A stretch of DNA of 64,000 nucleotides from Lactarius indigo (lineage: Eukaryota > Basidiomycota > Agaricomycetes > Russulales > Russulaceae), in NCBI GenBank assembly GCA_025766275.1, contig JAFKAC010000108.1:62001-126000 (forward strand), read 5' to 3'. A program made the position numbers and the translations under genes. Under the pieces are notes generated by a model that was not told where the DNA came from, did no database searches, and saw only the letters and a program-made list of their open reading frames with translations. Positions 7,707 to 58,709 of the stretch are shown here, piece by piece. Within the stretch, counting starts at the first letter, position 1. Each line of letters opens with the position of its first letter.

Positions 7707-7849
7707 CAGCCAATGATCCGGCATGACTTCCATAACTGATGGGCCAACCGACGGTGAGAATCTTTCATATGTCATGGGCCAGCCGACATCGGCCAACGGC
7801 AAAGAATCTCCCAAGACTCATGGGTCAACCGACGTCGGCTCGGACGGAC
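7707..7849 (+). repeat. KDZ-1 left terminal inverted repeat
   Basis: This pairs with 23789-23930. Inside it are three copies of a motif close to CATGGGCCAACCGAC, the last two with the palindromic core CCGACRTCGG. The same triple motif is in the KDZ-2 TIRs, so it is a likely transposase recognition site. Confidence 0.85.
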
Positions 7850-7959
7850 AAAATGTATAAATACCTCCGAATGAGATGACCGAACGCAAACCAAGGGTGT
7901 ATTGTCAGGAGAATCACATTAGACACTTTCAAAGATATGGGATATATGGCATCAAGGAC

Positions 7960-9390
7960 CATCATTCTCAGACAGATGATCGTGATTATTGTCCGAGAGT
8001 ATATCTCAGACGGACAGCTAAGAAGTACGTCCGAGAACATATCTCGGACGGATGGCTAATATCATTGTCTGAGAACATATCTCGGACGGACGGCTAAGAT
8101 CTACATCCGAGAACGTATCTCGGATGGACGGTTAAGATCTACGTCCGAGATACTATCTCGGACGGATGGCTAAGATCTACGTCCGAGATACTATCTCGGA
8201 CGGATGGCTAAGATCTACGTCCGAGATACTATCTCGGACGGATGGCTAATATCTACGTCCGATATACTATCTCGGACGGATGCTTAAGATCTACGTCCGA
8301 GATAGTATCTCGGACGGACGGTTAAGATCTATGTCCGAGATACTATCTCGGACGGATGCTTAAGATCTACGTCCGAGATAGTATCTCGGACGGACGGTTA
8401 AGATCTACATCCGAGATACTATCTCGGACGGATGCTTAAGATCTACGTCCGAGATAGTATCTCGGACGGATGGCTAAGATCTACGTCCGAGATAGTATCT
8501 CGGACGGATGCTTAAGATCTACGTCCGAGATAGTATCTCAGACGGACGGTTAAGATCTACGTCCGAGATACTATCTCGGACGGATGCTTAAGATCTACGT
8601 CCGAGATAGTATCTCGGACGGACGGTTAAGATCTACATCCGAGATACTATCTCGGACGGATGCTTAAGATCTACGTCCGAGATAGTATCTCGGACGGATG
8701 GCTAAGATCTACGTCCGAGATAGTATCTCGGACGGATGCTTAAGATCTACGTCCGAGATAGTATCTCAGACGGACGGTTAAGATCTACGTCCGAGATACT
8801 ATCTCGGACGGATGCTTAAGATCTACGTCCGAGATAGTATCTCGGACGGACGGTTAAGATCTACATCCGAGATACTATCTCGGACGGATGCTTAAGATCT
8901 ACGTCCGAGATAGTATCTCGGACGGATGGCTAAGATCTACGTCCGAGATAGTATCTCGGACGGATGCTTAAGATCTACGTCCGAGATAGTATCTCAGACG
9001 GACGGTTAAGATCTACGTCCGAGAACGTATCTTGGACGGATGGCTAAGATCTACGTCCGAGAATGTATCTTGGACGGATGCTTAAGATCTACGTCCGAGA
9101 ACATATCTCGGATGGTTGGTGAAGAACCACGTCCAACAATATATCTCAGACAGATGATTGAGAACTTCGTCCGAGGTATACTCTTGGACAGATAATCAAG
9201 GATATTGTCCAAGATATATTCTTGGACAGATGATCAAGAGCATTGTCTGAGATGTATTCTTGGACAGATGATCATGAACATTGTCCAAGAATATATCTCG
9301 GACAGATGCTTAGGCACATTGTCCGAGAATGTATCTTGGACAGATGATCAAGAACATTGTCCGAGAATATATCTCGGACACATTATTGTG
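7960..9390 (+). repeat. KDZ-1 left subterminal array of 38 bp palindromic units
   Basis: More than 30 tandem units of 38 bases hold an inverted pair GTCCGAGAT...ATCTCGGAC. In the centre the array has a higher-order period: the variant AGATCTACATCC recurs at 8401, 8629 and 8857, that is every 228 bases (six units). Units decay towards both edges. No gene is present. Confidence 0.95.
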
Positions 9391-9726
9391 TATACAGATC
9401 AATGATAGGTCTTGATCATGCCCACCGACAATATATCTCAGGCAGATAACTGCGAACACCCTTCATGATGTGATCTCAAACAGATTACTGTGTGTTCTTT
9501 GACAGTATATGTCAGACAGGTGATAATTACCACCTTCAAAAAGTATATCTTCGAGAGCTCATATCAGTAGCCACCAATTACCAGGAAGCCCCTTGTAAGA
9601 ATACATCTTATACTGATAACCCAAATTACTTCTGGACACCATCTCTTGGAAATGTTACACAAATGATATATTCTTCGATGCTGTTCAATGTCATCTGCCC
9701 AAGATATGGGCCCACAGTAATCTGAT
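9391..9726. other. No gene seen; 3' flank of the KDZ-1 transposase
   Basis: This AT-rich DNA lies between the decayed edge of the 38 bp array and the transposase stop. A few degenerate GTCCGAG-like words persist at the left. I see no coding region. Confidence 0.6.
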
Positions 9727-12700
9727 TTATTGATCCTCCAATCTATTATGAGCAGATGTTATCGGAGTGAGTGCCTTGACTGAACTCCTACACATCTCCT
9801 CCCATCTGTGCACCTGGTATGATGCATATGCACTGTGCCCATCCAACCTCCCCTTTGTTGCCACATCCATCCATGTCTTCCAACACTCTGCCTTTGCATG
9901 GAAGTAAGCTGGAACCCACAATGCTTCATTTCTGATGCTCTTATCTTCCTCCTTCCATCGTTCAAGCTGTGACTTTGCTCGCAGCCAATGCACACGGTTA
10001 ACTATTCATTCAATCAGCATGGGTCATGGGCATGCATAAAAGTAGTCACTCACATTCATCAAACCATGCACCACCTCTCTTTTCAGAAGTACCAAAGCTC
10101 CAGAGCCATGGAAGCTGTGTGTTCCGCTGCCCCACTACTCCAGCACCAAGGATGGCTGTATGAACACGGAGATCTGTTGCCTGGAGTAATGGTAGTTCTT
10201 GTAAATCTTTCGATATTTGCTGCACCTTGATGTATGCATCTCTTGCCATGCTATATGTCCGAGCATGCTCATGGACTGTGTTATCAACGCTCTGGACTGC
10301 AGTCCAGGCACGAGTCTTCGTTTTCTGTGTTCGTGCACCTCGGACCTGGGTCCGGAACAGTGCCGATTTGAAGCCCAATGCCAGGCGAATCCTGTGGATT
10401 GAATCATTTGCCTGGGCATAGCGCAACTTAGCCTCCTTAAGTGCAAGAGATTTGACACCATGAGTGATACACCATTCTGCTCCAAGTGTTGATGGGAGTA
10501 AAATCGGAATGTCCTCTGCATTGGTACCCTCCGATCCAGAGATGTCCAATATCTGAGTCTTGGATCTTGGAACTGTGGAATCCTCCATATCATCCACATG
10601 GTCATACTCTCCATAGTCACCCAGTGATGGGATGGGTGCATCCAGTGGTTGATGGTGGAGCAGAAAGGCATCTGCCTGGTGTGAAAACATGTCAATCAGC
10701 TTCTGCAGGTGGATCCGCTTGTTCTCAATTGTCTGAAACTCTTCAATTGTGTGTGAGCCATGGGTCCGGAGCTGATATCTGATGGCCAATCTAAGCAAGC
10801 CATCAGGTGTACAATTCTGGTGATGTTAACACTGATGGCCAACTGACTGCATTTCCTGAATCTTGAGGCCACATGAAATCCATGATGTCCCACCACAAAT
10901 GGAATGGTTCCCATCCTCATCTGCCATCAGTTGCTGTTGAATCATGGCACGAGAAGGTGCTTAAATCCAGCATTAGTTCGGAGGAGGCTATCCATGATTG
11001 GTGTCCGAACCTTTCTGCTTCACTGTGTCATATATGTCCATGCTAGAAGGGTCCACACCTCTCCGTGTCTGTGCGGCCATGTCCTCCTCTAGCCATTGCT
11101 TGGTCTTGTCCTTAAAATGTTCACTAAGAGATTCAAATGCCTTGCTGCTTGCATCTAGGCCATGCTCCAAGCGCTTCCACCGCTTGAGAAGTGATGGAAC
11201 TGTCATATTCAAGTGATGTTAACTCTGTATGCCATTATGTATAATCCGGCCATACCGATCTGGACCAGCTTCTTCCAGTTGGAGTGGTTCATGTGGGCAT
11301 CTAGGACCTCTTGCCTATGAGCCAGGGACATCCCTCGTGTGCTCCGTGATATGTTATTCAGTGGGGCCCATAAGGTCTCTATGATCTCTCCATCAACCTG
11401 CTTTGCACCAGGAATGTAGCTCGGAGAGAATCGTGGTAAGCAAGAATCTTGGTGGCCATGTATGTGGAACAGTCCGATACCCATCCGGATGTCCAAGGCC
11501 TCGGAGCTGGGTAGTGACAATCCTGGACTGTTCCTTACTCACTCCTGGAAGTGCACTCTGTATTGGCACATGATGTCATACATCACCAGTGCAACTGGCA
11601 TGTCTTCCATGTTGTAAGAAAGAGCTTTGCAGATGCTGTAGTCCATATTTATTTGCCTGGTGATCATTGTAAATCAGTTGCAGACTGAGACTTTTAGTGA
11701 ATGGGGCATGCCTCTCTCCCTTCTGGAAGTCTACCACAGAAGTTGGAACAAAGAATCCATGGCAGCAAGCTGTTGCACCAATCCCTGTGACATCAAGATG
11801 TGCCCTACTTGAATTTGCCTGTTCAATGGCTTTGTATGTGTTACATGTGCTTGGCTATTGGGCCATCAGCCAAACCAAACCTGGTAGGGAGGCACAACAT
11901 ACCTGGACAATTTCATGGCCACTTTTAAGATGAGCCTTGTACAGTTCTGGATTCGCCATGAAGGCCATTCCAGCAGACAGTGCAACATCCTTCTCTCCAG
12001 ACCTGTGCCTCATGTGCTCTGCAGAGAAATTTCCATCCATAATGAATGTTCGGATCAATTCATTCCTATAGGGGGTCAATGACATGAAAACAGTGTCCGA
12101 AGATTCCACATACGGTTCATATCTGGCCTTCCAATCTCTTGGGAGGTTGACTCCTGGCTGTGGACATGCTGGGCAGAAAACTGCCATGGAGCCATCCGGA
12201 GACATTTCCTCCGACTGGTGTCCGAGTCCCTGCTCCATTCTGGACCTGAGGTCTCGCCATTGGCGTGATGTCCTCAATAGTTGTCTATACAAATTCTGCA
12301 ACAATTCATTATTGACTGTGGGTGATGTGGAAGAAGAGGAACGGACCGGAACAAGTCCTGGGAACATTCTACTGGTCTGGCTTTGCAACTTGGAATAGTA
12401 CTGTTGGGCTGTGGTCTTGCACTCCAAGTTGTCATTCAGAAAGTCATCAAGAACTGAGAATGTGAACAGAGTCCTGACTTGCTTGAAGGTAGCAGGAAAT
12501 AGACCACTCTGGAGCAGCTGTTCATCTTGGTTATCCGATTCGGAGCAGACACAGAACACTGTCTCCATTTCAAAGATACCACTCCTGTCCACAATTGTTA
12601 GAATCTGATTTCCTGAAAGCTCTCTGGGTGCCTGATCCATGGACATGTGCTTGTCACTTGAATCCGGAAAGATGTCCGAATTGTCAAATAGTGCATCTGA

Positions 12701-13597
12701 AATGATTGGAGTAGTTGATACACCACAAGGCTTCGGGGTATCCTGGGGTGTGGCTGAGTGGTCTGAAAGTTGGAGAGATTCTAGTTCCTCTTGAATGGAG
12801 TGCAGCGAAGATGACAACCCAGGTCCGGTGTGTTTATTTCTCTTGCCATGGGGTCCCTGTGCTGCTCTGATTCCCTAGATGAGCATGAGCACAGGTACAC
12901 ATGAGACAATGCAATGGTATTATACTTCAACAGTCAATGGACATGGTGCACCAGCATGCCCAATGAACAGCACAAATCCCAGTGAGTGCAGTGAAACCGG
13001 AGTATAGTGTGTTGCAGTCCATAGAAGTGGCCGATGAAATGGTGAATGCCTGTGAGACTTGACACAGCAGGATTGACAAAACAGTGGTGCTCCGACACAG
13101 TCAGGGCACTTGACCTCTCCATGGCCATGGCATATAGAGCATGTGGAGGAAGAAGGCCGACTCTCCATGGCCAAAAGTATATGGAGATATCTGCTCCGGA
13201 GTTGAAGCCATTGCTCCATGACAGTCTACATCAAATTAGCATCCTTCACCCCATGTAGTGGATATCTGGTACATACAGGTGCCTGTGGTTGAGACTGCTT
13301 GGTCTCATCATTTGGAAGCTCATCCATTTGCTCATCTATCCATTGCTCGGCTTGTGTATCTTTGAAGGAGGCTGAGGCCATTTGAGATCCCTCTGCTGTG
13401 GCTGGATCTAATGCTTTGTCCTTCTTTCCCTTCTTTGAGTTGGAAGACTCTCCAGCCTTTGCCTTGGTTGGGAGGAGAATGGGGACAGACTTCTGCGTGG
13501 TCCGAATGCCCCTCTTGGTCCGTCTGTGATGAATGATAACTTCTTCAATACCGTCCTCAGCTGGTAGAAGAGATTCAGCTGCACGTCTCCGAGGCAT
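9727..13597 (-). CDS. KDZ-1 transposase (CxC2 cysteine cluster plus KDZ catalytic domain), multi-exon
   Basis: This is the predicted DDE-type transposase of the element. It starts with ATG at 13597 (MPRRRAAES), and the same start and N-terminal sequence type (GIEEVII...KRG.IRTT) occur in KDZ-2. Exon 2 (about 13219-12920) carries the CxC2 cluster CSICHGHGEVKCPDC...CQSCC..SH....H. The catalytic domain follows: Asp in FIMDGNFSAEHMRHR (about 12040), Asp in MYDIMCQY (about 11565), and Glu in VDGEIIETLWAPLNN (about 11380). The C-terminal exons (10798-10046, then 9993-9727) contain the conserved AKLRYAQANDSIHRIRLALG stretch. Exons are separated by roughly 50-70 base introns with GT/AG ends. I saw no internal stop in the exons. 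Exact splice sites are inferred. Confidence 0.9.
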
Positions 13598-13784
13598 CTC
13601 TGGTGATCAGAAAGTATAAACAGGAGGGGTGTATCTGTGGTGGATGATGCTATTTCGGTATGTATCAATGTTCCTTTTATATCTGCTGCTCCATGCACAT
13701 CTCATATATGTCCATTATTGATCTCAGAGATACCTGATAGTTTGTGGCAGGTGTCTCGGACACTGAATCTATATGGGTATGTCA

Positions 13785-14092
13785 GTCCGAGATTGCCAGT
13801 ACAAGATTGTCAGTCTGAGAGTGTCAGTCCGAGATTGTCAGTCCGAGATTGTCAGTCCGAGATTGTCAGTCCGAGATTGTCAGTCCGAGATTGTCAGTCC
13901 GAGATTGTCAGTCCGAGATTGTCAGTCCGAGATTGTCAGTCCGAGATTGTCAGTCCGAGATTGTCAGTCCGAGATTGTCAGTCCGAGATTGTCAGTCCGA
14001 GATTGTCAGTCCGAGATTGTCAGTCTGAGACTGTCAGACTGAGACTATCAGTCCATGATTCTCAGTCTGTGATTCTCAGTCCGAGATTGTCC
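13785..14092 (+). repeat. 14 bp tandem array (GTCAGTCCGAGATT) upstream of the KDZ-1 transposase
   Basis: About 20 near-perfect copies of a 14 base unit with the core GTCCGAG begin about 190 bases upstream of the transposase ATG. The array decays at the right edge. Its core word is the one used in the 38 bp arrays, so it may be a binding platform for transposase or the element's Zn2Cys6 protein. Long frames across it are repeat artefacts. Confidence 0.95.
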
Positions 14093-14348
14093 ACTGATTC
14101 CATTTCATGGAGTTTGACAATCTAATATTTCATATTCATCTCTCAGAGTTGTGTTACCCCACATACATCTCAGAAGCAGTAACAGAATGTATGGTATGCC
14201 AACATTCATGATATAGACCATGTAGATCTAGTTCATTGATTGGGTACTCAGTCCGAACACAGGTACATGCAATAGCTACCTGCAGACCTATATACTACAA
14301 TAGTACCACCCACCCATGACAGCACCTCTGGTGCAAGCTTTGGATGGA

Positions 14349-14778
14349 TCATCCACTCATCTCAACATACTCCGAAGGCAGCGCAATCCCCTGTGCATCA
14401 CAAAGTGCCTTAGCCATGATGCACATATTCTGGAGGTCAATGTGGAGCCTGTCGATCTCCACAATGATCTGATTATACTATGCCCCACATAAGGATACCG
14501 TAAAATATGCTCCAGAGTGATGCACATACCAGGTTTCCCAAGGCAACTAGTGACTCTAAGTCCGAGTTGGAACCATCCAAACCAGAGACATCCGAATTTG
14601 AGCTGCTTGCATCAGAACTAGTGCTGATGCCTTCATCATTGTAGTGGGCCGGATACATATCTTCTTCATCAAATGATTCAAAACCTGATGAGATGCAGGT
14701 CTCTGGCTCGGAGAGATTGGAAGGTGTATCATGGTCATGTGTAAACAAGGATCCATGTGTTTCTGTCATTGGCAACAT
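14349..14778 (-). CDS. KDZ-1 gene D: small acidic Ser/Asp/Glu-rich protein, two exons
   Basis: Exon 1 starts at ATG 14778 and encodes about 84 residues with an acidic core (SSGFESFDEEDMY, then Ser/Asp runs). An intron with GTATGTGC donor and CATAG acceptor leads to exon 2, which encodes YNQIIVEIDRLHIDLQNMCI and ends MSG at TGA 14349-14351. KDZ-2 gene D (41781-42305) matches in position, strand relative to the transposase, the motif SSGLESFDEDDMY and the C-terminal helix with LCVDLENIYI. There is no recognisable domain. An acidic partner of the transposase or a transcriptional activator is speculation. Confidence 0.65.
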
Positions 14779-15834
14779 CTTCCTGATGGATTCGGAGTGA
14801 GGTTCGGAATTGACTATGGTTGTGTATACAGTGGTTGTATAGTACAGTGTTTCGTGAGCATTTATAAGCTATCTGAGTATCCAATATCTCATGGATAATG
14901 GCATAATCTGTAACACAGTACCCCACCCCACTCCGATCACCTATTGTCAAGTATAGCACTTCACTGGGTTTGAATTGAAACATGTGTGATGTATGTGGAG
15001 TGAGTGAATACTCTGCAAGATCTCTTGGGTTGCATTGGATATGTAGAGATGTCACCACAGCATAGGCAACACACACAAGGATTACTAGTCTGCTAGTCAT
15101 ACGATCATAATGAATGCACTATGTGCCTAGCAATTCGTACTTGATTGCTTAGCATTAGTATCAGCATCCTTGCCTAGACACCCAATTTGGACGGATATTA
15201 GTCACTGACACACACCAAAGTCCGATGTCTGCGCAAATGAATGTCCGAGATTCACGGAAATAAATGTCCGAGATTCACAGAAATGAATGTCCGATGTCAA
15301 CAGGATGCATGTTTTGGCTATTAGTGGACAGTCTTTGATGCCATCAGTTCTCTTAATTGATACAGGTACACCAAGTCATGCTAACACATGTACCGAAGAT
15401 ACACTATGTAATGATATACGAACATAACAGACACATGTGCTCCCCTGTCTGTTTGGCACAGAGATGGGAGCAGAGTGCTCAATATGCATCACTGTGATTC
15501 CATGACAAGGACAGTACATATCCACTAAGTATGATGAAACTGGACTGAGAATAAGGCATCTGATGTGGACCTGAGATTACTGGAGTCGCTTAGGATGTTC
15601 TCTGAATAGCATTATATATAGTGTCCCAAGATGCGCATGACGTTGAGACCTTAAGGAGTATTATGAGGAATTAGTCAGATGATCTCCCTAAATCAATTGA
15701 ACATATTTAATAGAATAAGTGCATCAAACATGGGGTGAAATAGGATGGATACAGTATATAGTATCAGAGACAGAGTGAGCTGGGCAGCTGTGAGTGCAAA
15801 ATAGAGTGACTCTAACACTAAGTGCATCTGAGAT
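14779..15834. other. KDZ-1 intergenic region, no convincing gene
   Basis: This AT-rich stretch separates gene D from the 16 bp array. Scattered GTCCGAG/GTCCGATG words occur at about 15220-15300, three of them with a shared ACAGAAATGAATGTCCGA-like context. A 121-codon minus-strand frame at 14735-15100 overlaps gene D and has no counterpart in KDZ-2. Confidence 0.5.
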
Positions 15835-16865
15835 GGTATGTGTCCGAGATGGTGTGTGTCCAAGGTGTTGTCCAAGATGGTGTGTGTCCAAGATGGTGTT
15901 CATCTGAGGATGTGTGCATGCGAGATGGTGTGTGTGCGAGTCAATGTGCGTGCGAGATGGTGTGCGTCCGAGAATATGTGTGTGCGAGCATGTGTGCATG
16001 CAAGTTGGTGTGCGTGCAAGTAGGTGTGCATCCGAGATGGTGTGTGTGCGAGTAGGTGTGCGTGCGAGCATATGTGCGTCTGAGTCGGTGTGCATATGCG
16101 AATATGTGCGTTCGAGTCGGTGTGCGTCCAAGAATATGTGCGTGCGAGTTGGTGTGCAGTGCGAGTATGTGTGCGTCCGAGAATATGTGTGCTCCTGTTG
16201 GTGTGTGTCCGAGAATATGTGCGTCCGAGTTGGTGTGCGTCCGAGTTGTGCGTCCGAGCATGTGTGCATCTGAGTTGGTGTGCGTCCGAGTTGGTGTGCG
16301 TCCGAGCATGTGTGCGTCCGAGTATGTGTGCGTCCGAGTCGGTGTGCGTCCGGGCAAGTGTGCGTCCGAGATGGTGTGTGTCCGAGTCGGTGTGTGTCCG
16401 AGCATATGTGCGTCTGAGTATGTGTGCGTCCAAGTTGGTGTGTGTCCGAGTTGTGTGTCCGAACATGTGTGCATCCAAGTTGGTGTGCGTCCGAGTTGGT
16501 GTGCGTCCGAGTTGGTGTGCGTCTGAGTATGTGTGCGTCCGAGTATGTGTGCATCCGAGTCGGTGTGCGTCCGGGCAAGTGTGTGTCTGAGTTGGTGTGT
16601 GTCCGAGTTGGTGTATGTCCGAGCATATGTGTGTCCGAGTATGTGTGCGTCTGAGTTGGTGTGCGTCTGAGCATATGTGCATCCGAGCATGTGTGCGTTC
16701 GAGTATGTATGCATCCGAGTCGGTGTGCGTCCGGGAAAGTGTGCGTCCGAGTTGGTGTATGTCCGAGCATATGTGCGTCCGAGTATGTGTGCGTCCGAGT
16801 CGGTGTGCATCCGAGGATGTGTGCGTGCGTCCGAGTTGGTGCGTCCGAGTTGGTGTGCATCCAAG
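15835..16865 (+). repeat. 16 bp tandem array (about 64 copies) with core GTCCGAG
   Basis: Units are close to GTCCGAGTTGGTGTGC, with variants ATG, CAT or CGG in the spacer; array edges are more diverged. The strand is G/T-rich. Because stops are rare in the unit, several frames are open on both strands and give repetitive peptides (THTNSDAH or VCVRVGVRPS types). These are not supported as genes. Confidence 0.95.
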
Positions 16866-17170
16866 ACAGTGCCTATCCGACACCCAATTTGCCCAAGTCT
16901 GTGTGAGTCATAGAATGTGCATAAGCTCAGTCCAAACTCAAGGTCAACCTGACCACATATGGTAAGCAAGCAAGCAATCCAACTTTCATTTCTAGACATT
17001 CTCTGGTACTACATATGAACGACACATTCTATTACTTGGTTTCAATGATAACTGTGACCATTATGGCCGACTGCGCGAGGATGCCCTTGACCCAGGAGCA
17101 CTAGGGGCCCTAGAGACACTTGGGGCCCTAGAAGCCGGCTTGATGGTCGCTCCACTGCGCCCAATAGACA

Positions 17171-18777
17171 CTAACAGGGGTCAGACATAAAGCAAGTGAG
17201 TCCGAAATAGAGTCCGATTTCGGACGACGCACCATTAGCTGGCACATTCCCAGCACCGCTTCCGGACGATCCTGTGGCTGGACTGGCTGAGATGGACAGC
17301 CTGGAGACGTCAACGCCAGTGGAGGATGTCGAGGCAGCTGTGGAAGCTGTGGTACTGAGTGTGGAAGCTATAGATGGCGAGACGGCAGATGCTGAGTTGA
17401 ACAGAGGGACTGGTGGGGTATGGAGATTGAGGGTCGATGGAATGACGTCGTGGCGCATGCACAGCGCACGGAGGAGTAGTTTCAGATTGTTCTGGCCAAT
17501 CTGGAGAGCTGCAAGGCGCTCTTCAAGCCTTTCTTGTCCGTGCTTGAGAGAGTCAAGTGTCGGCGTCATATCGTCGAAGACAGCTGTAAGGGAACGTTAA
17601 ATGAGTTCGGACGGACTGCGGTCAATTGCACACATGCGGCCGAACGCCTCCGGGGCGGCTGCTGTTTCCTCTCCTCCTTCGCAAGCTTCGAGCGCTCGAT
17701 GGATTCGATGATCGGGAGTGCCCAAGCTGGTGGAGGCTGGCATTGCACCTTGTGACTCCAGCAGAGCGCACATGCTATGGCCTTTGGAGCGTTGACCTGG
17801 GGGACACACTCCTTCGCATTGGACATCTGGCATGGCCCACAGAATCCCTGGATGCCAGATTATCGCACCACCACTCGGAGAGCAAAACAGACGTACAGGG
17901 TCTGGAAGGGATTCCTTTCCCTTTCCCTTTGCCTTAGCAGATGTGCTGGCCTTGCGTTGACGGCGCTTTGCAGGGATGTCCGAGGATGGTGATACCACAA
18001 CAGCCTGGGGGCGCTTGGTCGCCCTTGGCTTGCGCGGTGTCGCCTCCACATCCGGATTGTCCAACATGATGATGTCGTCACCAGTCAAGTCTTCATCAGT
18101 ATGGCTGGATACCTTCACCTTTGAGTTGCGTCTGGAGCGGCGCGGACCACTACTCGCTCCGGTACTAGCTGATTCGACTATTGTGTGCGATTAGATTAGC
18201 TATGTGTCTTCAGCATATGAGCAGCGAACTCACCTTCTGCAACTTCATTGTCGTCGTCGCCTTCACCTCCGGCAGCCTCAGCAGCTGCGTCTTCAGCAGC
18301 CTCCTCATCCTCAAATGTGGGCTCTCCAGGGAGCCACCACTCGACCATGTCCGGTACCTCACTAGCAAGGCGCCGGACGTCAGCCAAGGAGAGCACTGGG
18401 TTGAACCCAGGGTTCGCACTTGAGAACGCCTTGCAGGCCTCACGGATCGCATCGATGCTGAACCTGTCCAGCTCCATGTCACCATTACCAACGCGCACAC
18501 TCTCCTCCCCAACCATGCGCAGCAGTGGATGCATGCGAGGGACACAGGCATCCTCCTTCTCAAAGACCTCATTGACCTCGTCCTATGACACTCAGTGAGT
18601 GAGCCGTGATACGCATTCGGACGGACCACGCACCAACTCATTTTCCAATGCCTGGTTGTACCAGGAATCGTCCACAGCTTCCTTATGTTCATCCCTATAC
18701 CGGAGAGCAGTGTCTATCCTACAGGCGATCCCCAACAGCTGAGCCTCAGCAGGAGTAATAGAGTCGGATGCTGCCAT
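17171..18777 (-). CDS. KDZ-1 gene C: Zn(II)2Cys6-type DNA-binding protein, multi-exon
   Basis: It starts at ATG 18777 (MAASDSITPAEAQLL). The N-terminal motif CRIDTALRYR...AVDDSWY matches FDLALRYR...SVDDDWY of KDZ-2 gene C. An acidic Glu/Ala region and a basic Lys/Arg/Ser region (KRPQAVVV, AKRRQRKAS) follow. A six-cysteine cluster lies at about 17830-17740: CGPC-x7-C-x11-CALC-x6-C. This is the fungal binuclear zinc cluster pattern with one extra residue in the first loop (usual x6). A leucine-rich probable coiled coil (LKHGQERLEERLAALQIGQ) comes next, as in many Zn2Cys6 dimers, then a Ser/Thr-rich tail. Gene B diverges from the same upstream region. It is likely a sequence-specific DNA-binding protein of the element; the targets are unknown. 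Confidence 0.75.
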
Positions 18778-20045: not shown

Positions 20046-20154
20046 TAAAGTTCATAGCTGTAGTCTACCTTGTGAATCTACTGTTCCTCCTCAGGTTTTG
20101 GTCACTTCTGTTGGGGTGATTGCAGCATACGATGTGACCATATTCAATCAGATG

Positions 20155-36700: not shown

Positions 36701-37038
36701 TCCTTCCTTAGATGAGACGGAAGTGAACTTACTGTGGAAGGAAGTGATATGTTACGGATTAGAACTGATACTTGAATGGAAGTGATATGCCCTCAGATGG
36801 AAGTGATGTTTCACTGGATGGAAGTGATACTTCCTGAGACGGAAGTGATGCTTCCTTGTACAATAGAATGTGCTTCCTCTGATGGCGGAAACATTTGCCA
36901 TGGGATCCATTCGTAACCTTAGTTCTGTATGGCTCACCCGTCCACACATATGTATGAGGTATTTACTGGTACATAGAAAGTGTGCGAGCTCGTTTTGAAT
37001 ACATGTGTGTTTCTCAGTACAGACTCCTTGTAACTACG

Positions 37039-38374
37039 TCACTTGTCCCGGCCGCTGGTCTTGTAAATTCCATCCCTAATATATGAGATATCAGAATAGA
37101 GGTCCATTACGACACCCATGAGTATCGTGCATCTCTCCATGAGATCCCCAGAGTGATCGGATGGGTCAAGCGAAAGCAGCCCTCTGTAGGCAGCAGGGAA
37201 ATGGCGCCTGGATGCGACATGCGGATATGGTGCCCTGGCCACCTATGGGAGAGTGTAAATGTCAGGAAACCGCAATCCACAAGACACCACTCACATATGC
37301 AACAGGTATAAGATTACTCTCAGGAATACTTATGATTTCCTCTTCCGGCGGACTGGAATCGGTATCCATCTTCTCCCCACTGTGAGAACCTTCCACCGAC
37401 CGTGGGCTTTCAGGAACGCGTGCTGTAGGAGGGGCTGTAACATCCTGTATGTCGATGGGAATGGGCATAGCGCTCCGTTCCTGTATTGGACTATCTGGTA
37501 GCTCAAGGGCTTCGTGGACCTGCGATCTGTCAAGAACGGTCACTGCCTCAGGTCTATCAGTTACATCGTCCTTGTGGAGTACGGGTTCCGTGTGTACGAC
37601 TTCCTGCAAGATGTCGCCAGCGCCCTCTTCCGCCGGACCTGTAGAACCATGAGATTCTTGCATAGTTGGAGCCGTTCCGGGACTGCGCGCGGTTTCCTGT
37701 GACCCGTCGGAAATGGCTGCAACGCCAAGGGTGGATGTTGTCTGGGTGAATGTGACTCAAAATAACTCGCCATGAACGTGTGCCATCTTGGGACTTACAA
37801 TGCTCTGAGCTATGTCAAGGACATCAGCTATCTCTGGATCCGCGGCTTCCTGTAGCTCACAGGAAGGTCCTGCAGCGTGTGGAACTGGAGTAACCCGCAA
37901 CGGGTCAGTGGTGGGTTCCGTCTCAGATGCAGGTGCATCCGGGGTGGTATCCTGCCTCAGTGTTGCCTTTCGCCTATGGAGGAAGGCGGTATGGCGGGCA
38001 TGGTGAGTTGGTGGAGACGGATCGGACTCAGTGGGCTCCACTAGTATTGTCGCTGACACATCCGTTGTGTTCTGCGGTAAATGAGAGTCGTTTGTGATGG
38101 AGGGGAAGATGGGGCATACCACTGGCGAAGGCAAGGAAGGTGCTACGGAAGTTTCGATTGTAGCAGGAGGCACAGCAGTAGCTGGACTGCGCTTCTTGAG
38201 GAAGCGGTAGCGTGTGGAAGGCCGTGCCTCTACTGTGGAAGATGGTGTGGCCTGTCCGGGTTCTGAAGGATGGCCAGATGATATGGTAGAGAGTGGGGGT
38301 CCATGCCCGGATGGATCGCCCTCAGTGGAATGCTGTCCGGATTGCACACGGGAAGGGGGAGGGCGTGGAGGCAT
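37039..38374 (-). CDS. KDZ-2 gene B: low-complexity Pro/Ser/Thr-rich protein
   Basis: It starts at ATG 38374 (MPPRPPPSRVQSGQ), preceded by GGCATACGTTGGAAAG as in KDZ-1. The first exon encodes a Pro/Ser/Thr-rich region with RYRFLKKRSPATAVPP and ends near 37770. A middle segment (37663-37310) is acidic with Glu/Pro/Ser content, and a final exon gives LMERCTILMGVVMDLYSDIS and ends GRDK at 37039. No known domain is recognised. Its divergence from gene C and its place next to gene A match KDZ-1. Confidence 0.5.
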
Positions 38375-38929
38375 CTTTCCAACGTATGCCCATTGACCTG
38401 GAAGCCCCTGTTTCAGTATAAATAATTTACCAACTAGGGTCGGACCTGTATGCGACATTCTCTACTGATCTATGGGCTGTAGGTGATTCTACAGTGGTGG
38501 GTTTCGAAATACGCGTCGACCATGTCATCAAAAATGTCTTCTGATACATTTCTAGCAGACCTATACAATATGACGCTAGTTTACTAGGGCCTCGACTCTG
38601 CACTCCAGGCCTTGGATTGCCAATAGGCTTCTGAATGATGCAAGACATCAATAGTTGACACACGAGGCGAGGCCATGTGATCAGTAATGTCCGAAATTCG
38701 GATAAGTTGTCTGAAACTGTCGGATGCCATTGGGTTCCATTGGGTTCCATTGGGTTCCATTGGGTTCCATTGGGTTCCATTGGGTTCCATTGGGTTCCAT
38801 TGGGTCCTATCTAGCTCCATTCGGAAACTGGTCGTCGGGCATGGGAGGCTTCCCACGAGCAACGGAAAATACTGCGTGTCCGTCCCCCCCTCCCTGTAGT
38901 CCGTTTCCGCACATTCCCTCGCTTCCACT
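38375..38929. promoter_or_regulatory. Divergent promoter between KDZ-2 genes B and C, with a 10 bp tandem repeat
   Basis: The region contains seven perfect and one degenerate copy of TGGGTTCCAT (38727-38810), starting about 200 bases upstream of the gene C ATG. The rest has no coding signal. Confidence 0.6.
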
Positions 38930-40794
38930 ATGCCCCCACAGCGCAGGATATATGTGGACAAACTTACTGCAGATGAAAAAGCACTGATGGGCACTGCTAT
39001 CCGCTTCGACCTTGCGCTCAGGTATAGGGAGAAGAATATCGAATCTGTGGACGACGATTGGTACAGGACGTGCATTGCTTCGGAATTGGTAAGTGCTAGT
39101 ATCCCTTAATATATTGAACTGCACGCTAATTTGATGTTTTCACTATATAGGACGATGTAAATGAGATATTTGGGAAGTACTCAGACGGAACGACGGAGCC
39201 GCGTATGCACCCAATAATCACATATGTTGCTGAAGAATGGGATAGCGCTGCGGACAGTTCCAGGGTGCTGGATATCGCTGCACTCAAGCTCGAAGACGTC
39301 TCCAAGCTATGCGACGACGGTGCAGTGAATAATCCGTTGTGGAATAGCCAGCTTAATATGAAGACGCATAATACACTCATTGGGCTTCTGAATCCCTCGG
39401 ATCGGTGGTGGCTTCCGGCTCTGCGTTCGGATGTGGATGATATTCCAGGTATGTTACACATCTTCCTCTCACTCCTGAAACAGCTATTCCCATTTTCCAG
39501 ACGCTCCCCACGTAACGCCACCTAAGGCGGGGTCCAAAGCATCTGGAAAGCGTCCCGCGCCACCCCCTCCTGATACGGGTTCTGACAGTGGTGCAGAGCC
39601 CTCCGGCCCAGTTCCTGCATCTGTTCAGGATGCTACCACGGTCAATGAGGATGTTGAGATGCAAGAGGATGATGGGGGAGAAACGCCGTGCAAGCCGAAG
39701 AAGGCCACAAAGCGTGTCGCAGTCCAGTCCCCCACAGCAGCCCATCGTACTACCCGCCGCCGGCGCACAACTACTGGCACAGGCGACGTCCCTTCTTCTC
39801 CAGAGCCCGAGCCCACGGAACTCGTTCCCGTGCGCCCAGTCCCCATGGAACCAGTGTCCGGTGTCCCTCCGCACGCTGCTGTTCCCACGCGCACAAAACC
39901 CGTTAATGTGACCATTGTGAGTTCTGATGAGGCTGAGGATCTGCAGGGATCTCGTCGATCTCGTCGACGACGTCTAAGTATCATTGACGATTCCGCCTCG
40001 GAACTGGAAACTGGGCCGCCGGATCCGGTAAGTCCCTCATGGCTCTATTCCTGTTTCCATACTCACAGTGTGCTACAGCGCGCATGTGGCCCTTGCAAGG
40101 CTGCAAACCACAAATGCAAGCCACAACCCGCCGGGAGGAAGGGAACAGCATGCAGGTGGTGTACGAAGCGGAGGCACAAGTGTGTCCCCCGCCCTCAGTG
40201 GGTGGCGACAGGGAAGGAGGACGGGAAAGGGAAGAAAAAACAATCACTCGGTGCGTTCCCATTTGTCTGATATCATTGTATTATGCTAACGGACCCACAG
40301 ACAAAGTCGTGCAGAGGTTGGACGACATGTCCAACACTCAAGAGGCCCATATTGCGGCCATGCGCGACTTCGTGCACAATACGGACGTCATCCTACATGC
40401 CCTGTGTACCCAAGGACCAGGTAATGTTAATATGTCGACCCTACGCCTCCGGACGCCTGCTGTTCCGCTTTTCACGGAACCTGGACCGTCCACACCCAGC
40501 GCGTCCTCTGTTGCCAGTGGCGCCAGTGGCGCCCCCTCAACAGTTTCCAGCATGGGGCTTGGTCGTATGATGATCAGCGATGCAGGTGTCGCTGGCCCTT
40601 CCAAAGTCCCACCCGACCGCCCACAGGCCCCAGGTACGTCGTAACTTGCATCCACATTTCCCGGATGCGTATTCATATTTTCCGCCTTCCTAGCATCTCG
40701 CCAGAGTCTCCGGAATCGCTCAAGCCGTGCGGGAACCTCTAGTGGAGCACAGTCGAGGGTCGGGTCGCGCCAATCGTCTCACGGACGTACCTAG
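38930..40794 (+). CDS. KDZ-2 gene C: Zn(II)2Cys6 DNA-binding protein, six exons
   Basis: Proposed exons: 38930-39088, 39151-39448, 39501-40027, 40079-40250, 40301-40633 and 40694-40794, each bounded by GT/AG. The N-terminus has GTAIRFDLALRYR...SVDDDWY, homologous to KDZ-1 gene C. Exon 3 is basic and Pro-rich (TTRRRRTTTGTG, RRSRRRRLSIIDD). Exon 4 encodes the zinc cluster C-x2-C-x6-C-x11-C-x2-C-x6-C (from CGPCKAANHKC to CRWCTKRRHKC), the canonical fungal binuclear cluster, followed by a basic linker. Exon 5 has a predicted coiled coil (VVQRLDDMSNTQEAHIAAM) and a TPAVPLF motif shared with KDZ-1 (TPPVPLF). It should bind DNA as a dimer in the nucleus, plausibly at element-borne repeats. Confidence 0.8.
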
Positions 40795-41780: not shown

Positions 41781-42305
41781 ATGTCTGACATCCAGAAGGC
41801 ATCAAAAGAGAAGGATATTGATATGTCCATAAAGGATGTCCATCTTACCTTTACCAGGACCTATACTGGGGTTTCCGATCCAGAAGATGATGCTTCATCT
41901 GGTCTGGAATCCTTTGATGAAGATGATATGTATGGATCGGACAATGGAGATGACATCATTTGCAATATTCCCGACACAGATGAAGAATCACAGGAACTTG
42001 AACATTCCTTGGATAGGGTATGTCCTCCACCCCACTCCCGACTTTCGGAGATCTCATGTGTTATCCAGCTCAATGAGCTCATTAATGCTTCCCAGAGTCT
42101 GTGTGTCGACCTTGAGAACATCTATATTCTGGCAGTGGAATTGTACAATATTTGGAACAGGGGAGATGTGTCTGAGCATGATTCCCAGCAGAGTTCAGAT
42201 CCCTTGTCTGTCCTGCATAGGTCAGATATACTAGAGGTGGAGGCACATGGTATGGATATCGAAGCGGAAGTAGAAGGAGCCTCCACTGGCGGATTTAGTA
42301 AATAA
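41781..42305 (+). CDS. KDZ-2 gene D: acidic Asp/Glu/Ser-rich protein
   Basis: A 174-codon open frame starts at ATG 41781 (MSDIQKASKEKDID). The core SSGLESFDEDDMYGSDNGDD is strongly acidic, followed by a helix LNELINASQSLCVDLENIYI and an acidic tail. KDZ-1 gene D has the same two blocks but splits them with an intron. It lies about 260 bases upstream of the transposase and is co-oriented with it. Function is unknown. Confidence 0.65.
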   Translation: MSDIQKASKEKDIDMSIKDVHLTFTRTYTGVSDPEDDASSGLESFDEDDMYGSDNGDDIICNIPDTDEESQELEHSLDRVCPPPHSRLSEISCVIQLNELINASQSLCVDLENIYILAVELYNIWNRGDVSEHDSQQSSDPLSVLHRSDILEVEAHGMDIEAEVEGASTGGFSK

Positions 42306-42566: not shown

Positions 42567-45500
42567 ATGCCTCGCACTCGTGATGTTATCATTCCTGAAA
42601 CTGTTGAAGGCATCGAGGAGGTCGTCATCAAGCACACCAAATCGAAGCGTGGTACAATCCGGACAACGGAAAAGGTTGTTCCCATTGTCCGTCCACAGAA
42701 GGAGCGATCCGGACAGCCTTCACGGGCACGCCAGAAGGATGCACACCCGCAGATTCCATCAGCTAGTGTCAAAGGTTCTGGGAGGCCTCTCCACATCCCT
42801 GGAGACCCGCAGATGGACCCATACATGGAAGAGCAACAGTATGACTTCCACAATACAGAAGAGGATGGTCAGCTACAACCCGACTCAACAGCCACCCAAC
42901 AGGCCACTGTATGTCTCACATTTATTCATATCATGTAGCTATCCTGATCAGATGTAGACTCCAATGAAACAGTGGGTGGAGCTCAGGGATAGATATCTCC
43001 ATGTTCTCCTGGAGATGGAAGGTCGGGGAAGATCTGACAAGTGTTCCATGTGCAGCAAGAAACCTGAAATAAAGTGTCTGGATTGCTTTGGACCACTGTT
43101 GTTTTGCAAGGACTGCTGTCTTGAAGCTCACAGGAACTCCCCATTTCACAGACCACTACTATGGAATGCAACCCACTACACTCCAGTAACTCTGCACTCC
43201 CTCGGATTTGTATTGTGCATCGGGCATGGTGGTATGCCATGTCCACGAACAGTTGAGGTAGTTATGGACACACATATCTTGCAATGTCTTGTAGTGCTCA
43301 TATTACCTTAGGGAATCAGAGCTGCACAAGCAGTCTCCACTAGTAGAAAGAGGAGTTCCGGGAAGAGACGTGCCCACTCAGCATCTCTTGCATCTGTTTC
43401 CGAGGGTCCTGATTCTCCGGATAATTCTGGCCAACTTCCTACACCTTGCGAGACTCCACAGCCAGAAGGCCCATCCACTAATCCGGATATCTCTGACAGA
43501 CTCTTTGACTCCCTGGATATGTCTCCGGATTCTAATGACAGTGATTCCAGCAGAGTGCGGACAGCGGACTCTGGTAATCCACTGTTCACTGTTGTTGACA
43601 GAAGTGGAATCTTCGACATGGAGGTAGTATTCTGCATTTGCCCAGGAATGGACAATATTGGCAAGCAGCTTCTCCAATCCGGGCTATTTCCATCCACATT
43701 CCGGCAAATAGAAACATTATTCACATTCACAGTATTGGAGGACTTCATTCTGGATAACCTGGAATGCAAGACCACAGCCCAGCAGTATTATTCAAAGCTG
43801 CAAAGCATGACAAGCAAGATGTTTCCCAACAATGTGCAAGTATGTCTTCATCCATACATACACACACTCCCATCCACCCACATCCAGATCTAATAAATGT
43901 TTACAGAACCGTTACAAGCAACTTCTGAGAGCATCTCACCAGTGGCGTGACCTCAAGGGCAGGATGGAAAGTGGGCTTGGACATCAGTCAGAAGGAGAGA
44001 GCTGTCCAGATGGAGCCATGGCAATATTCTGCCCTGCATGCCCACAGCCTGGAATCAATCTTCCTAAGGATTGGAAGACACTATATCCTCCGTATGTCAT
44101 TTATGAACTGGCATCTCCACATACTCATACTCCCCATTGAAGTGACCAGCTTATCCGGACATTTATCATGGACGGAAACTTTTCCGCAGAACACATGCGC
44201 CATAGATCCGGGGACAAGGATGTTGCATTATCAGCAGGAATGGCATTCATGGCCAACCCTGATTCCTACAAGGCTCATCTCCAGTGTGGAAAAGAAATAG
44301 CCCAAGTATGTGATGTCTTCCTTACCCGGATCCTTTTATCTAATGGCCTTATAGCCCAGCACATGTAATACCTACAGAGCCATTGAACAGGCAAATTCTA
44401 GTAGGACACACCTTGATGTCACAGGGATTGGTGCAACTGCCTGCTGCCATGGGTTCTTTGTTCCAACATCTGTGGTGGATTTCCAGAAAGGAGAGAGGTA
44501 TGCATGTTCTCTTGGAATCCCTATATCCGGAAGTGATGTACCATTTCCGATAGGCAAATCAATATGGACTACAGCATATGCAAAGCACTCTCATACAATA
44601 TGGAGGACATCCCTGTGGCTCTTGTCATGTATGACATCATGTGCCAATATAGAGTCCACTTCCAGGAGAGGGTCAAATGCAGTCCGGAACTCTCACTACC
44701 AAGCTCACTGACACTCCGGATGGGAATTGGACTGTTCCATATCCATGGGCACCAGGATTCTTGCTTGCCAAGGTTTTCTCCCAGCTACATTCCAGGAGCA
44801 AAGCAGGTTGATGGAGAAATAATCGAGACCTTGTGGGCACCCCTGAATAATATCTCTCGCAGCATCCGAGGGATGTCCTTGGACCATAGGCAGGAGGTAT
44901 TGGATTCCCACATCAATTACTCCAACTGGAAGAAGCTGGTTAGGATTGGTATGTATTATCCATCCGGACTATCCCATATGTTAATACAACACTAATGACA
45001 CTTGTATGTGAAAGTCCCATCACTACTAAAGCGGTGGAAGCGACTGGACTCTGGCTTGGATGCCAGTGCAAAGGCATATAAGGCACTCAATCAACACTTC
45101 AAGCATAAATCTGAACAATGGCTGAAGGATGATGAGGGTGCTCAACAGGAGAGACAAAAAACCCCATCTTCCATGGATATCTATGACACTGTGAAGGAAA
45201 AGGGTGTGTGGTCTGAATCTGAAATCTTCCACCCATAATTGATGAATGTCTCCAGCCCCATCTCGGGCTGCTATCCAGCAACAGCTTACTGAGGAAGAGA
45301 GCAGGGACCATTCCATCCAGGGTGAGACATCTTGGATTTCATGTGGGCTTAAGATACAGGAATTACAGTATGTCCACAAGGATCCTTCCTAACTCATTGA
45401 ATAATGACCTACCCAGACTTGCAATCCGCTATCAGCTCCAGAGTCAGGGATCAAGGCTCACTATAGAAGATTCACAAGTCCTTGAGAATAAGCGCAATCG

Positions 45501-46506
45501 CATACAGAAGCTTATTGATATGTTTGAGCACCAGGCAGACACCTTCCTACACCATCATCAGGATACAGATGATGTTCCTGTATGGTCTATGGGGGACTAT
45601 GCTGAATATGACAATGTGGATGACATAGATGGCTCCGGAAATCCTGGCCTTGGACCTTCTGGCCATTACCATGGCGCCCCAACTTCTGATGGCTCAGGAA
45701 TGGAAAGTTCCAATGTTGAGGACATTCCCCTCCTTCTTCCGTCATCCCTCGGATGGGAGTGGTGTTCAAGCCGCGGTATCAAGTCTCTTGCAATGAAGGA
45801 AGCTAAGCTACGCTATGCTCAGGCAAATGATTCCATCCACAGGATCCGCCTTGCTTTAGGATTCAAGTCTGCACTCTTCCGAACACAAGTGCGGGATGCC
45901 CGTACACAAAAGACAAAGACCCGTGCATGGACTGCAGTTCATGGTGTTGATAGCACAGTCCATGAGCATGCCTGGAACTATTGCATGGCACGGGATGCAT
46001 ACCTCAGGGTCCAGGAAGAATCCGGAGACTTTCCGGAATTACCACCCCTCCACCCCACAGATCTTCGCATCAGCACAACCATCCTTGGAGCAGCACAGGT
46101 GGGACAACGCAATAAACAGCTCCCATGGATATGGAGCTTTGGGGTCTCTGAAAGGCATGATGGAACTTGGATGGATGAGTGTAGGCCAACATCCATTGCC
46201 ATATGATGAATGCTTACAGATATTTCAGTTAACCGAGTTCATTGGCTTCGTGCAAAAGCTCAGTTTGAGAGGTGGAAGGAAGAACAACACAGTATTCATA
46301 ATGAAGCCATATGGATTCCGGCTTACTTTCATTCCAAGGTGGAGCATTGGAAGACCAGGATGGATATGGCAGCACAGGTGCTGCTTCCTGGCCATGAAGC
46401 ATATGCATCTTGCCAAGCACATGCATGGGAGGAACTATCTAGGAGTTCTGTAAAGGCACTAATCCCAATCACCTCTTCTCCATTAAAACATTTAGAGACT
46501 ATGTAA
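42567..46506 (+). CDS. KDZ-2 transposase (CxC2 cluster plus KDZ catalytic domain), multi-exon
   Basis: It starts at ATG 42567 (MPRTRDVIIPETVEG). Exon 2 (from about 42957) carries CSMCSKKPEIKCLDC...CKDCC..AH....H, the CxC2-type KDZ-associated cysteine cluster. Next come FTVVDRSGIFDMEVVFCICP and CKTTAQQYYSKLQ. The catalytic domain has Asp in MDGNFSAEHMRHR (44168), the GIGATACCHGFFVP motif (about 44428), Asp in MYDIMCQY (about 44627) and Glu in VDGEIIETLWAPLNN (about 44808). The C-terminal region has LRYAQANDSIHRIRLALGFK, WIWSFGVSER and RVHWLRAKAQFERWKEEQ. It ends at TAA after LETM. No stop interrupts the exons, so it could be functional. Introns of 45-65 bases are inferred. Confidence 0.9.
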
Positions 46507-46739
46507 AGGTGTATCCTAGTTCTGATCTATTCCCATAAACTGTAAATCAATGATATCACTCCACTTATTTCATGTATCACAATGGAAGGCAATCTCTACA
46601 TTACAGGAATTACAAGGGAAGTGATGCTTCCATCATAGATAACTCATGGAAGTTGGTTATTATGTTATTTCTTGGATTCCAGAAAGCTACTGAAGGTGAT
46701 TTTGGTAAGTTAAACGGAAAGCTAAGACTTCCACTCCTG

Positions 46740-47095
46740 GAAGTGACACAAGTTTTGATTCCTCCATTTCTGGAAATAATATGTGTTAGGATTTCTGTTC
46801 AGGAAACACATGTATTGATTTCTGCATTTCGGGAAAATGACACAGGTGTTAAGGTTTCCGTTCGGGAAATGATAGGGTTTTGATTCCCCATTTCTGGAAA
46901 TGATTTGGGTTTTGATTTCCTGTTTCCGGAAATGATACGGGTTTTTATTTCCCCATTTCTGGAAATGATACGGGTTTTGATTTCCCCGTTTCCGGAAATA
47001 ATTTGGGTTTTGATTCTCCCGAAATGGGAGAATGACATGGGTCCATCTCAGGAAATAACACAGGTGTTAAATCTTATGTTCTGAGAATGGGTTTT
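46740..47095 (+). repeat. KDZ-2 right subterminal array, 33 bp units
   Basis: Units of 33 bases of the form GGAAATGATACGGGTTTTGA plus TTTCCCCATTTCT form an inverted GGAAAT...ATTTCC pair. The period equals that of the left KDZ-2 arrays though the sequence differs. Confidence 0.85.
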
Positions 47096-47384
47096 GGTAC
47101 TCCCATTTCAGGAAATAACATGGGTCATGATTCCTCCATTTCAGGAAATAAATGAGTGTTTATTCATCTGTTTCGGGAAATGACCCAGAAATCTGATTCT
47201 TCCATTATAGAAGGAAACATTGCTACTTCCTTTAGCAATTCCTACATCGGAACCGACGTCGGGTGGCCCATGAATTCCGGAAGAATTTTGTGCGTCGGCC
47301 GACGTTGGTTGGCCCATGAGTTATGAGGGGTTCTTCCCGTCGGATGGCCCATGAGTTATGAAAGTTATGGCAGATCATTATGTG
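47096..47384 (-). repeat. KDZ-2 right terminal inverted repeat
   Basis: The complement of 26085-26373 with about a dozen differences. It ends ...CATTATGTG; the base after is not part of a recognisable duplication of the left flank. Confidence 0.9.
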
Positions 47385-58679: not shown

Positions 58680-58709
58680 TCACCCCCTTTTCAGCGTGAG
58701 ACCCCAGAC

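Follow-up and report, generated by a model that had tools for sequence, protein, structure and literature searches.

VANDAL elements belong to the MULE superfamily. CACTA/En-Spm elements, which have CACTA ends and a 3-bp target site duplication (TSD), encode the accessory protein TnpA, whose binding sites are numerous short subterminal repeats, and Gal4-type Zn2Cys6 factors have CGG dyads of fixed spacing as their targets. We compare these systems here with two giant KDZ transposons, KDZ-1 and KDZ-2, that lie in a 64,000-nt stretch of the genome of the milk-cap mushroom Lactarius indigo (positions 62001-126000 of its contig; genome of 90.3 Mb in 291 contigs), hereafter the window. Both elements carry a cassette of genes, A to D, beside the transposase, and arrays of a short CGG/CCG-containing site; the arrays, unseen in the preliminary description of this DNA, are the more surprising part. 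The precedent for anti-silencing by an element-encoded protein is VANC of Arabidopsis VANDAL elements, as far as the available parts of the sources describe it (PMC5735166; PMC10398659).

Among described KDZ elements, the TET-bearing Kyakuja-1 and Kyakuja-2 of Laccaria have a 7-bp TSD, CA..TG ends and no terminal inverted repeat (TIR), according to the accessible part of the account (Kojima 2025, PMC12730594). The Lactarius elements resemble the Kyakuja group as characterised there in their KDZ transposase with a cysteine cluster, their CA..TG ends and their 7-bp TSD, and in that extra genes are possible. Unlike that group, they have clear TIRs, and Pfam gave no TET/JBP match in the scanned cassette products (exons or models of the transposase, A, C and D, and part of B). 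The same portion of the Kyakuja account makes no mention of the A-B-C-D set or of a Zn-cluster-like protein with matching sites. Because TIRs are present, contrary to Laccaria Kyakuja, we class the elements as autonomous-type KDZ that are Kyakuja-like only, in a comparison of domains, ends and TSDs. The KDZ1-KDZ3 elements of Cryptococcus (9-11 kb, shown to be mobile) likewise have TIRs, but their transposase combines KDZ with CxC1 and their TSD is 8 bp (4-8 bp for KDZ2/3); the extract of that work at hand deals with the transposase only and mentions no cassette or arrays (PMC12810828). Excerpts of other accounts state that CxC2 precedes the intact KDZ in Pleurotus (PMC7641404), that TIR motifs have been characterised in Marasmius oreades KDZ elements (PMC8290104) and, in an Ectocarpus paper citing Iyer 2014, that fungal KDZ elements often carry accessory genes (PMC12477816). 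The titles and abstract openings listed in literature searches described no KDZ cassette and no KDZ zinc-cluster protein; Iyer et al. 2014 and most subscription papers were outside this scope.

A mobile multi-gene KDZ cassette

We named families by transposase and A similarity (F1, KDZ-2 type; F2, KDZ-1 type; F3-F7). Beyond the window, the sample comprised four copies each of F1 and F2 and a single copy of each of the families F3-F7, with F8-F10 left out. The window elements and their genes are as follows.

7707-23930, minus strand: KDZ-1 element (family F2), 16,224 bp, CA..TG ends
9750-13620 (approximate), minus strand: KDZ-1 transposase (CxC2 and KDZ domain)
14349-14778, minus strand: KDZ-1 gene D, acidic, GFESFDEEDMY core
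17171-18777, minus strand: KDZ-1 gene C, six-cysteine Zn-cluster-like, modelled with 5 exons
19140-20043 (approximate), plus strand: KDZ-1 gene B, WAYVGKMPP motif, fast-evolving
20935-22678, plus strand: KDZ-1 gene A, putative HMG-box-like protein
26085-47384, plus strand: KDZ-2 element (family F1), 21,300 bp including a nested MULE, CA..TG ends
34227-36225, minus strand: KDZ-2 gene A
37262-38461, minus strand: KDZ-2 gene B
38930-40644, plus strand: KDZ-2 gene C, CGPC..ACRWC six-cysteine cluster
41781-42305, plus strand: KDZ-2 gene D, GLESFDEDDMY core
42567-46480 (approximate), plus strand: KDZ-2 transposase (CxC2 and KDZ domain)

The preliminary description had reported two KDZ elements in inverted orientation with a common five-gene cassette. 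Its outer coordinates are exact to the base, and the inversion is confirmed by DNA alignment, with 69% identity across 3.4 kb of the transposase and 68% across 1.4 kb of A. The order and relative strands of transposase, D, C, B and A are common to both elements, as claimed, and the C, D and A motifs quoted there occur in both. The KDZ-2 transposase exon matches the KDZ domain (PF18758, E 1.3e-29), both window copies are among the 175 matches listed for this domain in the genome, and both transposases match CxC2 (PF18803; E 1.4e-20 for KDZ-2, 1.3e-21 for KDZ-1). KDZ-1 is inserted within a Gypsy pol gene and is flanked by the 7-bp TSD CTTATGA (7700-7706 and 23931-23937), with TIRs identical at 33 positions of the first 45 bp. 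KDZ-2 has inverted arms of 301 bp with 94% identity; no TSD is present in the window copy, whose flanks differ (GCCTTCT vs CAACCAC), and it is therefore probably rearranged. Each window element has one in-frame TGA that had been overlooked, at 11539-11541 in the KDZ-1 transposase and at 34872-34874 in KDZ-2 gene A, so that at least one gene is broken in each copy.

Conservation of the cassette holds for the transposase, A, C and D and fails for B, of which 11 residues align between the two window elements. We therefore rejected B as a strongly conserved gene and retain it as a positional one. The order A(-) B(-) C(+) D(+) transposase(+) is kept in F1, F2 and F3, all of which have the short B motif WAY[VA]GKMPP; F4 and F5 contain A, C, D and transposase, with open frames where B would be. 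The A exons of F6 and F7 are 29% and 27% identical to that of F1, and a Zn-cluster gene lies beyond A on its far side, assigned to these elements, whose ends were not located, by its position and by the sites running through it. A separate Zn-cluster gene of the F6/F7 C type (CDRC..CDRC) runs on the minus strand from about position 2574 of the F2b locus, just outside the left end of F2b at 2581; F2b is apparently inserted at its edge, which hints at nested KDZ elements.

A perfect 7-bp TSD with CA..TG ends surrounds the whole 13.0-16.2 kb unit in 8/15 elements: all four extra F1 copies (4/4), F2a, F2d, F4a and KDZ-1. Their TIRs have 33-41 identical positions in the first 45 bp. No TSD-flanked end pair was found within the stretch examined for F2b, F2c, F3a, F5a, F6a, F7a and KDZ-2. 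Since perfect TSDs enclose the entire cassette in complete copies, the genes move together, in line with the co-transposition proposed earlier.

Genome-wide, 112/133 A-exon matches have one of the 134 listed KDZ loci no more than 25 kb away, and 112/134 of these loci have an A inside that distance, although the genome fraction within 25 kb of a listed KDZ locus is at most 6.8%. In 106 of the 112, which include families at 26-32% A identity, A lies 5' to the transposase and is encoded on the other strand; the 21/133 matches without a KDZ neighbour among the loci listed include some close to contig ends. Searches for C and D used single-protein queries and reach the nearer families only. They returned 46 C loci. 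A as well as KDZ is found inside 25 kb of 43/46 and at least one of the two near 46/46, and the geometry is the expected one relative to A in 45/46 and relative to KDZ in 42/46. For D, the corresponding figures are 23/27 and 27/27, with 24/27 in the expected geometry to each of A and KDZ. Thus A (112/133), C (46/46) and D (27/27) are not mostly host genes situated away from KDZ, the outcome that had been named as contrary to the proposal. All species-named matches among those listed in A and C homologue searches are from Lactarius; these searches need shared 5-residue words, scored at most 8000 candidates and do not show absence elsewhere. In one Lactarius hatsudake database protein, part of gene A is fused to a Plavaka transposase (PF18759); this is probably a nested insertion that was misannotated.

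We estimated the ratio of nonsynonymous to synonymous divergence (dN/dS) on ungapped exon cores by the Nei-Gojobori method. Between KDZ-2 and KDZ-1, identity and dN/dS are 73.8% (871/1101 aa) and 0.09 for the transposase, 61.4% (347/404 aa) and 0.14 for A, 39.0% (41/77 aa) and 0.30 for D, and 41.8% (141/490 aa) and 0.28 for C, with synonymous divergence (dS) of 1.7-2.2, at which synonymous sites are saturated. A recent duplication followed by neutral decay, the other outcome named against the earlier proposal, does not fit dS of ~1.7-2.2 with dN/dS of 0.09-0.30; we rejected a recent segmental duplication of one element on the dS of ~2 and on the differing arrays. Between F1 and F3 the values are 82.2% and 0.16 for the transposase, 79.9% and 0.17 for A, 74.0% and 0.16 for D, 52.6% (over 325/490 aa) and 0.29 for C, and 33.3% (over 129/358 aa) and 0.36 for B. 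Transposase exons are 76-98% identical between F1 and F3; the exceptions are the 114 aa at the N-terminus, at 58%, and a linker of 74 aa, at 67%. Each of the six C segments compared is at 47-58%. Hence the main cassette genes are under purifying selection, and C evolves faster than the transposase, A and D, with B faster still; the transposase has variable stretches too. In two of the four F1 copies (F1b, F1d), C has dS of 0.16-0.19 to KDZ-2 and transposase and A have dS of 0.015-0.033. The two C haplotypes within F1 give the impression of a modular exchange of C between copies.

We conclude that a conserved multi-gene KDZ cassette, rather than a lone transposase, is the mobile unit. The interpretation given in the preliminary description is supported, and we infer that A-D are functional partners.

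Amplified CGG/CCG-containing sites

A CGG/CCG-containing site is amplified in 7/7 families examined, and these sites fall into four to five types (one common to F4 and F5, another to F6 and F7). The window arrays, which have no strand, and the nested element that splits one of them are:

7991-9380: KDZ-1 38-bp array, core CCGAGA-N5-TCTCGG
13780-14091: KDZ-1 14-bp array TGTCAGTCCGAGAT, core CCGAGA-N5-TCTCGG
15235-15294: KDZ-1 23-bp array with GTCCGAGA
15879-16862: KDZ-1 16-bp array GGTGTGCGTCCGAGTA, GTCCGAG core
23240-23644: KDZ-1 38-bp array near the other end, CGTCCGAGATTCTACCTCGGAC
26472-27069: KDZ-2 33-bp array (CCCGTCACGGG, ACGGAAA), left of the nested MULE
27074-32910: nested MULE-like element, within the KDZ-2 33-bp repeat array and outside the cassette
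32911-33880: KDZ-2 33-bp array continuation, right of the nested MULE
36498-36856: KDZ-2 21-bp arrays, between A and B
46861-47187: KDZ-2 33-bp array at the other end (TTTCCGGAAATGA)

The five KDZ-1 arrays, with units of 38, 14, 23, 16 and 38 bp, have GTCCGAG in common, and 91/92 TCCGAGA matches in KDZ-1 fall outside the gene spans, which make up 52% of the element. We measured densities per 10 kb in 14 elements for motifs chosen from these same elements by over-representation. ACGGAAA reaches 20-33 in five F1 copies and 18 in F3 (<=2.5 elsewhere), TCCGAGA 31-57 in four F2 copies (<=1.5 elsewhere), ACACGGA 40 in F3 (<=2.6 elsewhere) and CTGCCGA 37 in F6 and 34 in F7 (<=0.7 elsewhere); pooled flanks have 0.7-3.1. 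The motifs are thus specific to families or sister families. CTGCCGA also occurs 7-11 times per 3.4 kb in eight F7 fragments, one of them from the F7a locus; in F6/F7 no dyads were found and CTGCCGA occurs as single sites only.

F4 and F5 are organised differently from the tandem families. In the halves searched, F4 has one tandem array (45-bp) and F5 none, and neither has a strong 8-mer. Dispersed CGG-N5-CCG dyads number 28 in F4a and 34 in F5a, compared with 1.3 and 0.8 expected from triplet counts, shuffle means of 0.87 and 0.70 and maxima over 200 shuffles of 6 and 3; the best of 64 dyad geometries over 60 shuffles reached 6 and 5. The extended form CGGRNNNYCCG occurs 26 times in F4a and 34 times in F5a vs 10 times in 275,461 bp taken from the window and from loci of other KDZ families. 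Steps between dyads average 474 bp in F4 and 387 bp in F5 (range 46-1838), and the 3.1 and 2.4 kb of flank of F4a and F5a contain none, the left boundary of F5a being approximate as its end was not located. Half of the F4 sites (14/28) lie in alignable DNA, and only 9 of those 14 are also sites in F5; therefore most F4/F5 sites are at different places. The dyads of F1-F3 are CGG-N12-CCG (F1 and F3) and everted CCG-N11-CGG (F2).

We counted each element's own site in transposase and A exons and compared it with 2000 synonymous-codon shuffles. F4 has 6 sites in these exons vs a shuffle mean of 0.53, and F5 has 6 vs 0.45 (0/2000 in each case). For F6 and F7 the A exons hold 6 vs 0.89 and 6 vs 0.43 (each 0/2000), and the transposase exons hold 3 vs 0.37 in F6 (6/2000) and 5 vs 0.77 in F7 (0/2000). 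Foreign-site controls gave 0 or 1, and the transposase and A exons of KDZ-1, KDZ-2 and F3 contain 0 own dyads each. The excess in F4-F7 points to selection, or biased fixation, at the DNA level for the site in coding DNA as well.

CpG observed/expected is 0.51-0.66 in the elements vs 0.68-0.80 in two other parts of the window. This depletion fits a history of methylation, as expected of methylation targets, and proves nothing about C.

Protein C and possible uses of the sites

The pattern C-x2-C-x6/7-C-x7-12-C-x2-C-x6-C is present in protein C of 7/7 families, with six invariant cysteines in the full-length alignment of F1-F5, and is complete in 20/29 database relatives. A four-heptad stretch behind the cysteine cluster has hydrophobic residues at 7-8/8 a/d positions in F2, F4 and F5 and at 6/8 in F3; in F1 the best heptad stretch is in the Ser-rich tail, and the F6/F7 pieces are incomplete for such a count. 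In the structural model of C, residues 385-423, which follow the cluster, form a single long helix, though with low confidence. C also has acidic and Ser/Thr-rich stretches. By profile, C of the five families other than F6 and F7 has no PF00172 match, and among 20 relatives there is 1 match, at E 0.99; no relative of solved structure was found at E<=10 (profile; F7 piece) or at E<=1 (whole KDZ-1 protein), and a spectrin match of the F3 piece (E 0.41) was taken as chance. C may thus be called Zn2Cys6-like by its cysteine pattern, not by profile or fold. It resembles Gal4-type factors (PF00172) in its six-cysteine spacing and in CGG dyads as presumed targets; unlike them, it is transposon-encoded, falls below the Pfam cut-off and has no PDB relative by sequence.

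We favour, with some confidence rather than a strong one, the reading that C is a predicted binder of its element's own site with a role at the level of chromatin. C would be an element-encoded, sequence-specific Zn2Cys6-type DNA-binding protein that reads the CGG/CCG site multiplied over its own element, so that the element would label its own DNA. The site would take the form of tandem intergenic arrays in F1-F3, dispersed CGG-N5-CCG in F4/F5 and dispersed CTGCCGA in F6/F7. Spread along the element, C would most likely protect its chromatin from silencing by keeping it open, in the manner of VANC on VANDAL elements. It might also mark the correct ends for the transposase, with A, a candidate HMG-box-like protein, as a putative DNA-bending partner and the acidic D as a putative co-activator. 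The data are open to three uses of C sites: anti-silencing, transpososome assembly and cassette promoter drive. The first is favoured because the sites spread over the whole element and into exons, the second because the large arrays are subterminal.

Transpososome assembly may also be the whole explanation, the sites being bound by the transposase or C for cut-and-paste only, as subterminal repeats are by TnpA of En/Spm and Kat1 of hAT, with no part in silencing. This is a realistic possibility, albeit on the doubtful side. The largest array of each window element adjoins an end and both elements have arrays at both ends (7991-9380 and 23240-23644; 26472-33880 and 46861-47187), the transposase carries CxC2, and, in the available part of one study, subterminal repeats matter for Kat1 endonuclease activity (PMC4763223). 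End recognition would have no need, however, of the sites in mid-element between genes, or of those that in F4-F7 run element-wide and through exons. The same distribution makes it rather unlikely that C acts on the cassette promoters as a conventional activator or autorepressor and that the sites are its regulatory clusters: the 28-34 scattered sites, some in transposase and A exons, far exceed the needs of promoters, even though Zn2Cys6-type proteins are mostly transcription factors, C has the acidic and Ser/Thr-rich stretches noted above and the KDZ-1 and KDZ-2 arrays are intergenic.

That the repeats are neutral minisatellites, produced by replication slippage and unrelated to C, seems improbable to us. 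Sites in F1-F3 are mostly tandem with copy number varying between copies, and aligned F4/F5 sites show no extra conservation; yet in F4-F7 they are non-tandem, have only the core in common and are more frequent in coding DNA than codon use explains, and in KDZ-1 one core recurs across five arrays of different unit. We give least weight to A-D being passengers, that is, captured host genes with no role in transposition, which we consider very unlikely. Accessory genes are said to be frequent in fungal KDZ elements (PMC12477816, from the portion available), the functions of A-D are predicted only, and 21/133 A matches lack a KDZ neighbour among the loci listed. Against this, the same genes, order and strands recur across families with transposases 68-82% identical to that of KDZ-2, dN/dS between families is 0.07-0.31 for the transposase, A, D and C (where computable), and none of the 46 C and 27 D loci was found away from A and KDZ.

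Several results weigh against C as an own-site binder. PF00172 (Zn_clus) does not reach its cut-off in C (F6 16.2 and F7 18.0 bits vs 21), the six-cysteine pattern is incomplete in 9/29 relatives (half of it present in 3, none in 6), and the AlphaFold model, with a mean pLDDT score of 40.8, is too poor for a fold search. The transposase, with its cysteine-rich CxC2 and an N-terminus at 58% between F1 and F3, could be the binder instead of C. The F1-F3 dyads are mostly copies of tandem units, so that their counts are inflated and not independent and several spacings rise together. In control regions the top geometry occurs 1-8 times, except in the nested MULE, where CCG-N6-CGG occurs 13 times vs 1.5, presumably owing to GC-rich repeats. 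F4, F5, F6 and F7 are represented by one long copy each, plus seven more F7 fragments, and aligned F4/F5 sites are no better conserved than other dyads (9/14 vs 22/40). F4/F5 share one site and F6/F7 another, and F1/F3 have the same spacing, though their C proteins differ; a strict code for each single family is therefore not seen. Co-divergence of C and site is suggested, and the site classes also track the transposase relationship.

A bolder form of the own-site reading, for which we see nearly even chances, is a spacing-coded self-identity. Each family group would encode its own Zn-cluster protein and write the matching CGG code through its DNA (inverted N5, inverted N12, everted N11 or single CTGCCGA), in F4-F7 also via synonymous choice. 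Protein and code would co-diverge, and each group would open or mobilise only itself, as a convergent fungal counterpart of VANC.

The available part of the VANDAL work describes an element-encoded protein, short motifs across the element's own noncoding DNA, often tandem and differing between related elements, and a binder more variable than the transposase (PMC5735166); each has a counterpart here, with C as the candidate binder. Amplification of an own motif, as in a VANC-type system, is found in F1, F2 and F3; in F4-F7 the sites are dispersed and are shared within F4/F5 and within F6/F7. VANC differs from C in its DUF1985/DUF287 domains, Pfam scans of C giving no DUF1985 (VANC) match, and the Lactarius sites differ in containing CGG and, in F4-F7, in being dispersed and in exons; anti-silencing by C is proposed by analogy. 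With CACTA/En-Spm the elements would share an accessory protein, predicted for C, with many short repeats, but their ends are CAGCC.. and CACAT.., their TSD is 7 bp and their sites occur throughout the element.

If C reads these sites, mushroom KDZ elements would have independently evolved a VANDAL-like self-knowledge, by way of an amplified and changing motif, in an unrelated superfamily. The predicted code of CGG spacing and polarity for each family group would permit a precise test of binder-target co-evolution, and would imply selection for binding sites within transposon coding DNA and new CGG-dyad binders for fungal genetics. Unnamed hypothetical Lactarius proteins become annotated transposon genes.

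Other features of the window

The nested MULE-like element has the 9-bp TSD GAAACTCAG, very long GC-rich TIRs and a FAR1-like open reading frame at 28897-29493. Gypsy pol and gag pieces lie on the minus strand at 5653-7764, 24161-25303 and 25411-26142; KDZ-1 splits pol between '..FYRRFI' and 'FSTMARPL..', and gag abuts KDZ-2. Directly to the right of KDZ-2, Gypsy gag was not found, and the locus is probably rearranged. The remainder of the window (47385-64000) has no match to the transposase or C pieces used as queries. At 49826-50336, on the plus strand, it contains exons 1 and 2 of an A gene of the F4 family at 93-96% identity, which look like the relic of a third KDZ element, and at 48556-49046 a near-perfect inverted repeat of 242 bp (99%) with a 7-bp loop.

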